Shown here: piece by piece, positions 12,478 to 56,600 of the stretch | Position numbering within the stretch: the first letter of the stretch is position 1 | How the letters are laid out: the number at the start of each line of letters is the position of its first letter | Assembly (NCBI RefSeq): GCF_964204645.1 | Contig: NC_134029.1 | Location: 4,039,001 to 4,103,000, forward strand | Source of the DNA: Tubulanus polymorphus | Taxonomy: Eukaryota > Nemertea > Palaeonemertea > Tubulaniformes > Tubulanidae | Direction of reading: 5' to 3' | DNA length: 64,000 bases | The notes under the pieces: generated by a model | What the model was told of the DNA's origin: nothing | Seen by the model: the letters and a program-made list of their open reading frames with translations, nothing else | Database searches by the model: none | Position numbers and translations under genes: made by a program

Positions 12478-12602
12478 GATTTGAATTTTATTTCCCTTAC
12501 TGACCCACCACACCTGCCGGGAACGAAACCGAGGTTGAAACCGTAAATCGAAGCACAGATATCGTTGGACGATTGGTCGAATTAACAGAATCTTGTTTTT
12601 TG
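12478..12602 (-). repeat. Dispersed repeat family, copy 1
   Basis: Read on the minus strand it contains the family landmarks: TTCGATTTACGG-like and TTTCGTTCCCGGCAGGTGTG, followed by AAGGGA. The same order of blocks appears at 14618, 26043, 27528 and, reversed, at 47160. Copies are strongly diverged. I find no terminal repeats or coding capacity, so SINE or MITE cannot be decided. Confidence 0.6.
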
Positions 12603-50644: not shown

Positions 50645-53600
50645 TTAAGCTATGGCCTTCGCTTCCGGTAGAAAAGCCTCCCAGTATTTGATGAGCTGAA
50701 ATGAAAGTGAAATTCCGTCGATCAACATCAAAGTTCATTTCCGAGTTTGTTAATTCCAAGTCGGTTAAGTTGCGAATGGCGAAATATGTCCTCTTTAGGA
50801 AAAATTCCGACCAAAAATAAGTTGGATTAAGGAAAATTTATCGTATAAGTTTGAGAAAATAAAATCCAAATTGAATGTTGTACTTTGCAATATGAACATA
50901 TCACCATACTCTTTATATTGATATTATTCAACTTTCTATAAAGGATAGCCTTCTGAGGAGAAAACTAACTAACCAGGCAACTACAACATGATATTGTTGA
51001 TCATTTGACAAATTTCAAATTTTTTCTCTTAGCATCTGACTCAGGGAATACAATTTCCTATAATTCAGTCCTATATTTGTCCGGCTAAGGTGAGAATCCG
51101 ATTGATAAGATCCGACTAAGGGAGAGGTTTTAAGAGGAAAAAGAACTGAAAAATTGCGGACTGAGAATTTCTTCCCGACTCCTCCGATTTTCCAACTAAC
51201 AGCGAGCGACCTACGCAAGTTTCACTGTAAATACAAACCTGTTGCTGGGTTTCCATCAGCGATTCTAAAGCTTTTACAACCGAAGTTTTGAAGTCTTGTA
51301 CTCGTTGTTTCTCGAATCTAGACATTTCTTTGCGAATGGTTTGCGATATCTTCTCGAAGTCGACCTGGCCTTTCTCGACCTTCTGCTCCCACTGAAATTA
51401 AATTTCTTAGTTAAAAAAAAAGTCTAAGAATACGAAAACTAATAATGTGAATCAAGAATCATCAGCCCTAACATTACTGGGAAGATTTCAATGATTGCAA
51501 TAAATACCTCCGTAATCTCTTGAGCTGCCATTGGAATTTTGTCCATTTTATGGGCGAGTTCAAGTTTGACTTTGGCTTCTCGTTTCTTTGTAAGCATTGC
51601 TTCTGCATCTTTCCAGAACTTGTAACATTTTACTCGTTCATTGAAAGCTTCCTATGAACCAAACAAAAAACCTTTATCATTCTTAACCATTTTCACAATT
51701 TCGAGTTTAAAAGTCAAGGTCCTTGCAAATCTATAGATTCATCAAAAATGGACAACTCATTTTCTGACTTCTTCAGGCTTACCTTCACAGCACCGATCAG
51801 AGCGACATAATCCTTGAGTAATTCGGCCAAAATAAAGAAATCCATTTCAGCCTGTTGTTCATGAACCTGATCGATTTTTTCTTCCACTTCCGCTAATTGC
51901 GATAACGCACGGGACAATGCCGTATGTTCTTCGGAATTAGCTAACATTGCGCAACTTTTAGCAAACGACGCCGTACACATTCCTAGATCTGGAAGCAACG
52001 CAACATTATCGTAATGGATAAAACAACAAGATTTAATGTTTTTTCTGATTGTCGGTATCATTCAATCTACACACTACAGCTATAACTGAATTATCATCAT
52101 AGATTCAGAGAAATTCATCATCCGAGACGTCGTTGAACGAATACAGCCCCAAAGAAACCTACCTTTCCTGTGATTCACCAGAGCTTCAACGCTGGAATGT
52201 AATTTCTTCAACTGTTGGTCAAGATTTTCGATCTGCTGATGTTTTTCCTCGAACCACTGAAATCAGAAGGGTGAGAACAGGATCTTCACACGAGCTGATA
52301 TAGAATATATGACATTTGCGATGAGTACATGCTGTAAATGATAAGTTAAATCACAGATGAACCACTGACACTCGAAAACACATCAATATACAACATTCTA
52401 TTGTTAAAGAAAGAAACTATGGAAACCAAGACCAGGGAGGTGGGAGTGAATTCCCTCCCCCCTGCCAAGACTAAGAAAATTAATACAATGTACCGGTACT
52501 TCAATCTAAACCGGAATCAATACACTGCACATATAAAATGTATTCTTAGAAAAATATCCAAAATCATTTTTAAGACAACATGAAACGCTGAAGGGAAAAA
52601 TCAAGATGAATCAGTTGGATGGAAAATATTTCTATCTGCCATCAGTTAGTTTCACGTTTTTAAAGTGAAATAAAAGTCGTATGACTATGGAAGTCTATTT
52701 ATAGTTCATTGAAACATCAAGTTAGCAATGAACCAAAATTGTTTGTTATTTTGAATTGAAGGACTAACGACTACTGATATGCGTAATCTTCCTGATGTTC
52801 CAACTGTTGAAAATGCTACTTTTATGTTTTTCACTTATACTGCCCCAACTTGCAAAAAACCTCTATGACAAGACCACCTCTATAGTACAAATATGAACAT
52901 AGATAATGTACATGTAACGAATACAACCATACGCACAATAAGCAAAAACTAATTAGAGATGTCTTTACTTGCACTATTTATATGAAAGAAGTGCAACGAT
53001 TTCGTAAGTCGCCTGCTTTCCATAGGAAGCCAGCAAACGTTTAATCATAAGATCACAACAAAATGATGTGTGTACAGTCGCAATGGCTCAGTTGGTACAG
53101 CACATTACTAACACACTAAATCAGAGGTTCGACTCCCACTTAGGAAATATATTTTTCTGATTAAACTACACAAGTTCCTATATTACCTGTGGCATCCACA
53201 GGTACAGGTGCACCAGCTTCCCATGGACATAGTTCATCCAAGCTCCCGAGATTCCACACGGTCGCTACAGGCATGGGTGATCACAAACATATATTCCAAA
53301 ATGCTACTACTAAATTCATGGCCACGGAATCAAGACGTTTGAAGTTCCGGGAACCCATGGTTGATCCATCGCTTTTTCATGAACGATTATTTCACGTGAC
53401 GCGACCTTCAATTCGGGTCGCTAATGAAATCAGTGCATTTCGTAAAGACATCCGAAAACATACCGTCACTATTCACGTATGAATCCTCTAAAGATATTCA
53501 AGAATCAAATATAATATAATACAGCGTAATGAAATAGTTACCTCGAAATCGTAATCCCACTGTTCAGAGGGAGAAGCCAGGGCAGGCAGAGGAATACAAA

Positions 53601-56600
53601 AATAAGAGTGGATGTATAGACCATAGCTGAGCTGGCAAGAAAACAAAATTCAGAAATTCACCAAAATTCAATGATCGTGCAGCTCTGACTAGAGCTCTAC
53701 CGTCAATTATTAGATTGCTTTCCTTTTTTTAAAACTTTAAATATTCGAAACAATTTTGTCTACTCGTTGCAACTGATTTCTAACTCTGCGAGAACTACGA
53801 TTCCCAACAGAAACGAGAACTGAAGAAGTGTTCTATAGACGGATCTATTACTAGGATCATTTCACACTACAGATTATGAATACTACGTATCGAAAACAAG
53901 TACTATACGTGAACATTTCGTGTGGTCAGCACACACACCGATAAAATGAAGAGCGCAGAAGCAAAAATCAGAGACAGAGATAGAAATCCATAGAGATAAC
54001 GATGACATGATTTTCCTTAAGTGAATGAAATGTTGATAAAATGTGTGAAAACACCAATTGAAAATACCGAAACCTCAAATTGCCAATCAATCAAATCACC
54101 CTTTTACAATTGATATCGATATCATAATTTAAATGATAAATTGAAATTTTTTTGAAAACAGCAAAATAATAAAAGCTCACTACACAACATATAGTAGGCC
54201 TAGTCGCATAATGATAAACGGGGCAAGAGATGGTTATTCAACTTTTGAATGGTGCTATCTTGCCAGCGTAAACAATTTAACATACGAATGAAAAGAGCAA
54301 GGGAGAGATAGAGAGAGATAAAGGGACTGCACATATCTTGCTAAAAGTCCCCGAACTGGAAGTACTTTAAAACCAGCAGCATTCTCCCGCACTATGGACA
54401 GGGAGTCTGAACAAACACTCTGAACGAATCGATGAATATATTCTATTCAGCGATCAATACTGACCTGATCGGTTTCGTCCATTTTAAACGCCATTTTGCC
54501 GACAGCGTCGCCAACCTTGCTGAACAGACGCATGACGCCGGCGCCGCTCAGTGCAGACGTACTCGTCGCTTTTGGAAGTTCGCCGTCGGCTTCGAGGAAA
54601 TCGCGGAAGTCGGTGTCGTTTTGTAACACGGGATGAGCAGCAGTTCGATTTAAATATCTAGAAATCAAAATCGAGAAGATTATTTTCAACTATCGATTGA
54701 CGAATGAATGAATTGAAGCCAGAGGTTTACGTGATTGGCATGGCTGAAAGAAGTATCGCCACCAAAGATCGTGAGGGTTTATTGCTAAAGGAATTGATCA
54801 AACATCAAAATTTAAAACAGCAGAATTAAGATGTATCTATAGTAGAAGGTGCATGCTCTTCAGTTAATCCTGAATTTGAAGAGTACCGTAAGTGTAAAAA
54901 TTCAAGAAGGTTTCCTATGAATTAGAAAGTCTACGGCGAGTCACTACATTATTGTCTCTGAAAAAAATACATTATCTTTTTTGGTATTTCACCGGATTCA
55001 GAATTTAAGGAGTTTCAAATGCAATCTAGATGAGATCTAAAGGCCTTCAAAATATTTCTTTTATTGTCAGTTTTCAAGTAATCATATAGAATGAATATAC
55101 ACAAAGCACTGGACAATGAAGGACGTAAAATGCGACCAATACTCAGGAACAAAAACTAATCTCACAAACCTTTCTAATGCATTTCTCCTTCGCTCGACAA
55201 AATCAAACGAACCGGTTTCATCTTTCGACATCTTTACTTTAGTCATTCCTAATGCAGCAGAGAAAAGAGCATTAGACGAAGAAAAGCGAAAAAAAGTCTG
55301 AACGTTCAGCATCAATTGAATACATACATACCTATTACGCTCTTTTCAGGGGCTGGGGGAATAATTTTTCCTTCGGCAAGGTATTTTTCCACTAGTTTTT
55401 CGTGAAGCCCGAGGAAGTCGCTAAATCTTCTCATAACGATCAGTTCCGACGACCGAAATGTGGGAATGTTTGTCTGGAAATACCCGTTATGCAGAATACA
55501 ATTATAGAACATGAAAGTTTCCGAATAACAACTGTGATCAAAAAGTCAGATATATGTCGAAATAGAACATGTACAGAGCTGTCCATAACGCAGAATATTG
55601 GCACAATCAATAGCCCCTATTTTGACTTATATCTCACTGTCTAAACCAGTTTCCGATAAAAAGTTGACCGCAAGTTTAACTTACCTTAGTGATGACTTTA
55701 TAAGACATGTACGCACCCATTCCATCACCAACTTTGGAGGGATCGGTTACTGAAATATCGATATTGAACTTATCACCGCTTTCCTCTTCGTCAATCTAGA
55801 AATGAAAAGTAAACAATTCACCAGAATAAATACATGATTTTATGAGGCTCAGAAAATTTCATTCATCTTTTATAGAATATATAACAGGGTCCCAGTCCCT
55901 ACAGATCGGTCATTCCTGGTTATAAGGAAATTTCAAATTTCAAGGAAGTGCCCGAATCACTTTCACATCTCAATTACTATAGACTGTCCTTGACCTAATC
56001 TGTACTGTTTAGGCTATCTAGTTTAACAGGTAATTTGGTGCTTTTGTAAGCAAATTCTTATCCTTTATGCCAATAAACTTTTCGGTAAATTCTTATTCGG
56101 TTACTGCCTAATTAGGTAAAGAATCCTGGTCCCAACTGTACTGATCAAGGAGTAGTTAACTGTGCAACTACAAATATCTCTAATTACCTATTTCTCAATA
56201 TTCAAGGAGTTTTGGGCATTTTGCTCAAATTAAAGGAATTTCAAGCTGTTTAGGACTTAACAAGGAATCAGGGAGTCCTAGGGACCCAGTTATTATTTGA
56301 GAATTCCCTCCAGTTATAAGGTCCATACCTCTTCTCTAGAGCGAGATGACTTCGAAATGGAACTGGCGGCAGATTTCGTCGAAGCGCTTGATATTCCCAT
56401 TTTTGGCGGCTCCTCTTCGTCGAACAACAAACTTGGTTCTTTCTCGTTGCTGTCGGCTTTTGACTCTTCATCGTCTAGTGATATCTCTGTGTGCTTTTCA
56501 TCTGAAATGCATCATCGATATATTGTAGGGTGGTACATAACAATTGAAAGAAAATCAAATGAACACTATCAACACGGTTCTTACAGATTAGACAGGGTTT

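Follow-up and report, generated by a model that had tools for sequence, protein, structure and literature searches.

A candidate 18-nt microexon at the junction of amphipathic helix and BAR domain in an SNX1/2 gene of Tubulanus polymorphus

The stretch of Tubulanus polymorphus DNA analyzed here (64,000 nucleotides, hereafter the window; positions are those of the window unless a contig is named) carries an SNX1/2 sorting-nexin gene on its minus strand. The first exon lies near 58.2 kb and has an ambiguous donor. It is followed by an exon at 56501-56329, by the exon encoding the first half of the PX domain (55795-55685), by a further PX exon (55473-55332), and by an exon at 55248-55170 whose peptide ends in ...ALER. 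The constitutive exon at 54657-54465 encodes the linker and the amphipathic helix; its peptide ends in ...KMDETDQ and its donor reads CAG/gtcagt. The next constitutive exon, at 52256-52163, begins BAR helix 1 (WFEEKHQQ...) behind the acceptor ttcag/TGG. The remaining BAR exons (Vps5, PF09325) lie at 51988-51783, 51651-51508, and 51391-51239, and the last coding exon, which includes the stop, at 50695-50645.

The spliced part of the gene matched the Vps5 profile (PF09325) with 257.8 bits, and solved SNX1 chains matched it with an E value of 7.7e-53, covering both sides of the candidate described below. When the genome was searched with PF09325 (8 candidates scored), all 4 matches at E ≤ 0.001 fell within this gene, a threshold that leaves room for weaker matches outside it. 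The PX exons gave a match above cut-off at C5:4094252-4094464, which contains two stops because it extends into an intron. The domain order is that of SNX1 and SNX2—a PX domain followed by a Vps5-type BAR domain—and from the Vps5/BAR and SNX1 chain matches we assign the gene to SNX1/2.

The feature of interest sits in the intron of 2.2 kb that separates 54465 from 52256. The initial annotation proposed that an 18-nt segment there, in phase 0 on both sides, would insert six residues, WDYDFE, immediately before the start of the BAR domain, and this description proved accurate in coordinates, letters, splice dinucleotides, and translation: on the minus strand, 53559 to 53542 reads cag/TGGGATTACGATTTCGAG/gtaact in phase 0/0. 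The flanking junctions named with it are also correct (GATCAG/gtcagt at 54465 and ttcag/TGG at 52256), with SNX1 chains matching on both sides. The segment has a length of 18 nt, within the 3-27 nt class of microexons, preserves the frame, and has canonical AG and GT dinucleotides. Its inclusion would produce DETDQ-WDYDFE-WFEEK, with three acidic and three aromatic residues added at the linker/BAR boundary, where the exon of the amphipathic helix meets the first exon of the BAR domain.

With WDYDFE added, the Vps5 match falls from 257.8 to 247 bits, a loss of about 11 bits. Among four of the seven matched sequences, the two full-length SNX1 chains (7d6d and 8afz) leave WDYDFE in an alignment gap just before WFEEK, and the shorter SNX1 chains 4fzs and 8a1g start matching at WFEEK. 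Within the genome, the 161-base candidate region matches only itself. The 22-base string of exon plus donor, searched with up to three mismatches, found itself and two matches with three mismatches each, which we treat as chance; the reversed-pattern control found one. As a separate observation, the candidate peptide, W-DYD-FE, resembles the W-FE start of the next exon (53559-53542 compared with 52256-52248, both minus strand), and both open with cag/TGG; this likeness could be a coincidence or the trace of a small duplication.

Splice-site strength was scored with matrices of generic metazoan frequencies (neither MaxEnt nor trained on this genome), which gave 4.06 for the candidate acceptor and 3.73 for its donor. 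For comparison we used the gene's own sites, namely 10 constitutive acceptors and 9 constitutive donors, leaving out the ambiguous donor of the first exon. Four of the 10 acceptors and 5 of the 9 donors score higher than the candidate's; its splice sites are thus mid-range for SNX1/2. Both had been called good at the outset. They are indeed canonical, but for the donor (GAG/gtaact, 53541 to 53536, minus strand) the word was generous, given the stronger constitutive donors and the lack of a G at +5.

How often chance would produce such an exon depends on how the two sites are combined. Random genomic sequence was represented by 16 pieces of this genome (160 kb, both strands, 320 kb-strand). When both sites had to be at least as strong as the candidate's, around a frame-preserving, stop-free segment of 3-30 nt, a single case was found in that sample, and within the window (128 kb-strand) the candidate alone qualified. 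Order-4 Markov sequence (8 Mb, segments of 3-27 nt) yielded 26 or 18 such candidates, equivalent to 0.21 or 0.14 per 64 kb-strand. A different result is obtained when the candidate's total score is all that has to be matched and each site may fall short by at most 3 bits. By this measure, there are 2 candidates in the window's 128 kb-strand, including the one under study, versus 7 in the 320 kb-strand of random genome, one of which also has 18 nt and two TGC; Markov sequences gave 0.98 and 0.51 per 64 kb-strand. Summed splice-site strength therefore shows no excess over chance in the window, against either random genome or Markov sequence, and splice-site strength alone is insufficient to make the case for a microexon. 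The summed score also picked out a 9-nt microexon-like candidate, GTGTGGTGG, at 12513 on the minus strand.

These counts bear directly on the main rival explanation, a chance pseudo-exon: a pyrimidine-rich intron with strong decoy acceptors and, 18 bases downstream of one of them, a moderate donor, together never spliced in. Besides the frequency of summed-score candidates, it draws on the intron itself, where the acceptors at 53631, 53626, 52587, and 52461 equal or beat the candidate's score (five that reach it, the candidate included), and on a donor of only moderate strength; no other internal donor in this intron scores higher (the next, at 53464, scores 3.63). On the other hand, two sites that are jointly this strong are expected only about 0.005-0.0095 times per 2.2 kb of intron, and the pair is unique in the window. 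We regard a never-used decoy as nearly as likely as a microexon, and slightly the less likely of the two.

The architecture of the acceptor region adds a second line of evidence. From 53626 to 53560 (minus strand), the sequence upstream of the exon comprises a C/T tract with three TCTC/CTCT words, a 65-base AG-free zone, and the acceptor cag. Two copies of TGC lie at 53588-53586 and 53584-53582 (positions -29 to -27 and -25 to -23 relative to the exon). In the last 90 bases before the exon, the only word of the form YTNAY is CTTAT (53606-53602, position -47), which is weakly branch-point-like; CTAAY is absent from the 90 bases before both the candidate and the downstream acceptor, although CUAAY is a preference described in flies and may not be that of this species.

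The comparison set was 224 random acceptors as strong as the candidate's: at least two TGC are present in 13 of them, and an AG-free zone of at least 65 bases in 21 (9.4%). At least two TGC together with an AG-free zone of at least 40 bases occur in 3 of the 224, which makes this combination unusual for a chance acceptor and speaks against the pseudo-exon; the fuller combination of at least two TGC, an AG-free zone of at least 65 bases, and three CT words occurs in none. When the TGC/AG-free rate is multiplied by the site densities, the expected number of chance exons of this kind is about 0.0037 per 64 kb-strand, a figure that is optimistic because the thresholds were set after the candidate had been seen. 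Among Markov candidates of equal strength, at least two TGC were present in 1 of 26 and 2 of 18, none of which had an AG-free zone of at least 40 bases as well. However, the same signature (at least two TGC and an AG-free zone of at least 40 bases) is found at 2 of the 10 constitutive acceptors of the gene itself, 55248 and 51988, the former with three TGC, three TCTC/CTCT words, and a 47-base AG-free zone. It is thus not specific to microexons in this gene, and it favors a real acceptor more than a neural one. The initial annotation, which took repeated TGC for a hallmark of SRRM3/4-dependent microexons, was correct in that two copies are present, but the weight placed on them is reduced by the constitutive acceptors that carry the same signature.

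The same sites could also delimit a longer exon, with the donor after 53542 or the one after 53464 serving either a 90-nt in-frame exon or a 96-nt poison exon that would lower SNX1/2 output. The 90-nt version (53631 to 53542, minus strand) would pair the candidate's donor with the acceptor at 53631, whose score of 4.08 matches that at 53559, and it is open in the required frame; an open frame of this length is, however, fairly frequent by chance, and this exon would cross the C/T tract and encode a hydrophobic peptide that, judged by eye, does not look coding. The 96-nt version (53559 to 53464, minus strand), which contains an in-frame stop, would use the donor ACG/gtatgt, and its score of 3.63 nearly equals the 3.73 of the donor after 53542. 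We consider an exon of this kind improbable. Our preferred reading is that 53559 to 53542 is a genuine optional cassette microexon of the eMIC type in SNX1/2; judged from sequence, we hold it tentatively and give it slightly less than an even chance.

Elsewhere in the intron, a stretch at 53077-53140 on the plus strand looks tRNA-like by eye, with words that resemble a D-loop and TTCGACTCCC. Neither ARAGORN (run with the bacterial code) nor Rfam reported a tRNA or Rfam element in the intron. This stretch may be an old tRNA-derived repeat, because the overlapping segment 53049-53116 has a single match at 84% on contig C7.

An eMIC-type microexon would require its activator, and we searched the genome exon by exon for the SRRM_C (eMIC) family. 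No match was found at E ≤ 0.001; at E ≤ 10 there were four weak matches (best E 0.028), and this looser setting also gave matches in 2 of 14 control genomes. Two of the four share a strand of contig C2 at a distance of 2.2 kb (27844603-27844731 and 27842320-27842358) and cover SRRM_C profile positions 9-55 and 55-67; the remaining two are on C10 and C8. Joined at their splice sites, the C2 pieces read ...SPSHLDKRRIT-SARKRPIPYYRP... and match the family with 55 bits (E 1.3e-14, cut-off 27), and the coding part ends in an RS-rich tail followed by a stop. By these matches, the genome encodes the eMIC domain of a Srrm2/3/4-type gene, split over two exons, the second of which might be an alternative last exon, as in insects. 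According to PMC8797185, this domain originated in the ancestors of bilaterians and is the driver of neural microexons, the conservation of which drops quickly outside vertebrates; an absence of the candidate from vertebrates would therefore be no objection to it.

For the candidate microexon, a mechanism of putative neural control can be sketched. In most cells, 54465 would be joined straight to 52256 to give ...DETDQ-WFEEK.... In neurons, the eMIC form of Srrm2/3/4, together with U2AF and SF1, would recognize the long AG-free CT/TGC tract, so that the 18-nt exon would be defined and WDYDFE inserted. These residues would follow the membrane-inserting amphipathic helix and precede BAR helix 1, where they might alter helix register or membrane contact, and a change of either kind could tune endosomal tubulation. 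That neurons switch the membrane tubulation activity of SNX1/2 through this eMIC-controlled acidic and aromatic insert is a more speculative proposal than the microexon itself, and we rate it as rather unlikely.

On the side of function, PMC10352136 counts the amphipathic helix linking PX and BAR as one of the lipid-binding regions of SNX1-SNX5 and places a coat lattice contact at the start of this helix; we infer that residues inserted at the opposite end could tune tubulation. A microexon in SNX1/2 was not found in the openly accessible article texts searched. The retrieved passages of PMC12455821 mention microexons in general beside SNX19, those of PMC6352917 report Snx2 protein levels beside a schistosome reference, and neither UGC nor snx occurs in PMC12626424. 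If the microexon is real, the neural microexon program of bilaterians would be tied to the ESCPE-1 recycling coat, and nature would have supplied a compact perturbation of the junction between helix and BAR domain. Under the neural proposal, endosomal recycling coats would be switched by splicing, which we did not find described in the literature searched.

Comparison with known systems yields both likenesses and differences. Like the eMIC-dependent neural microexons of vertebrates (SRRM3/SRRM4) and other bilaterians (Srrm234), the candidate falls within 3-27 nt and preserves the frame. PMC8797185 describes eMIC targets as having a long AG exclusion zone, UGC, and a tract with alternating UCUC; the candidate has a long AG exclusion zone, UGC, and a tract containing UCUC, but its UGC motifs are somewhat distant from the AG (-29 to -23) and the CUAAY branch point was not found within the 90 bases upstream. 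Fly eMIC exons, according to the same paper, have very weak 3' splice-site regions, weak 5' splice sites, strong upstream 5' splice sites, and short flanking introns. A strong branch point, CUAAY in flies, is also a mark of eMIC exons. Unlike the fly exons, the candidate has an acceptor of middle strength, and its inclusion would leave sub-introns of 905 and 1285 bases; like them, it has a donor (3.73) weaker than that of the upstream exon (5.32 at 54465). With regard to the protein, the solved SNX1 chains 7d6d and 8afz differ in having a gap where the six-residue insert would sit, whereas the gene as a whole has the same order of PX domain, amphipathic helix, and BAR domain as the SNX-BAR proteins SNX1 and SNX2 of ESCPE-1.
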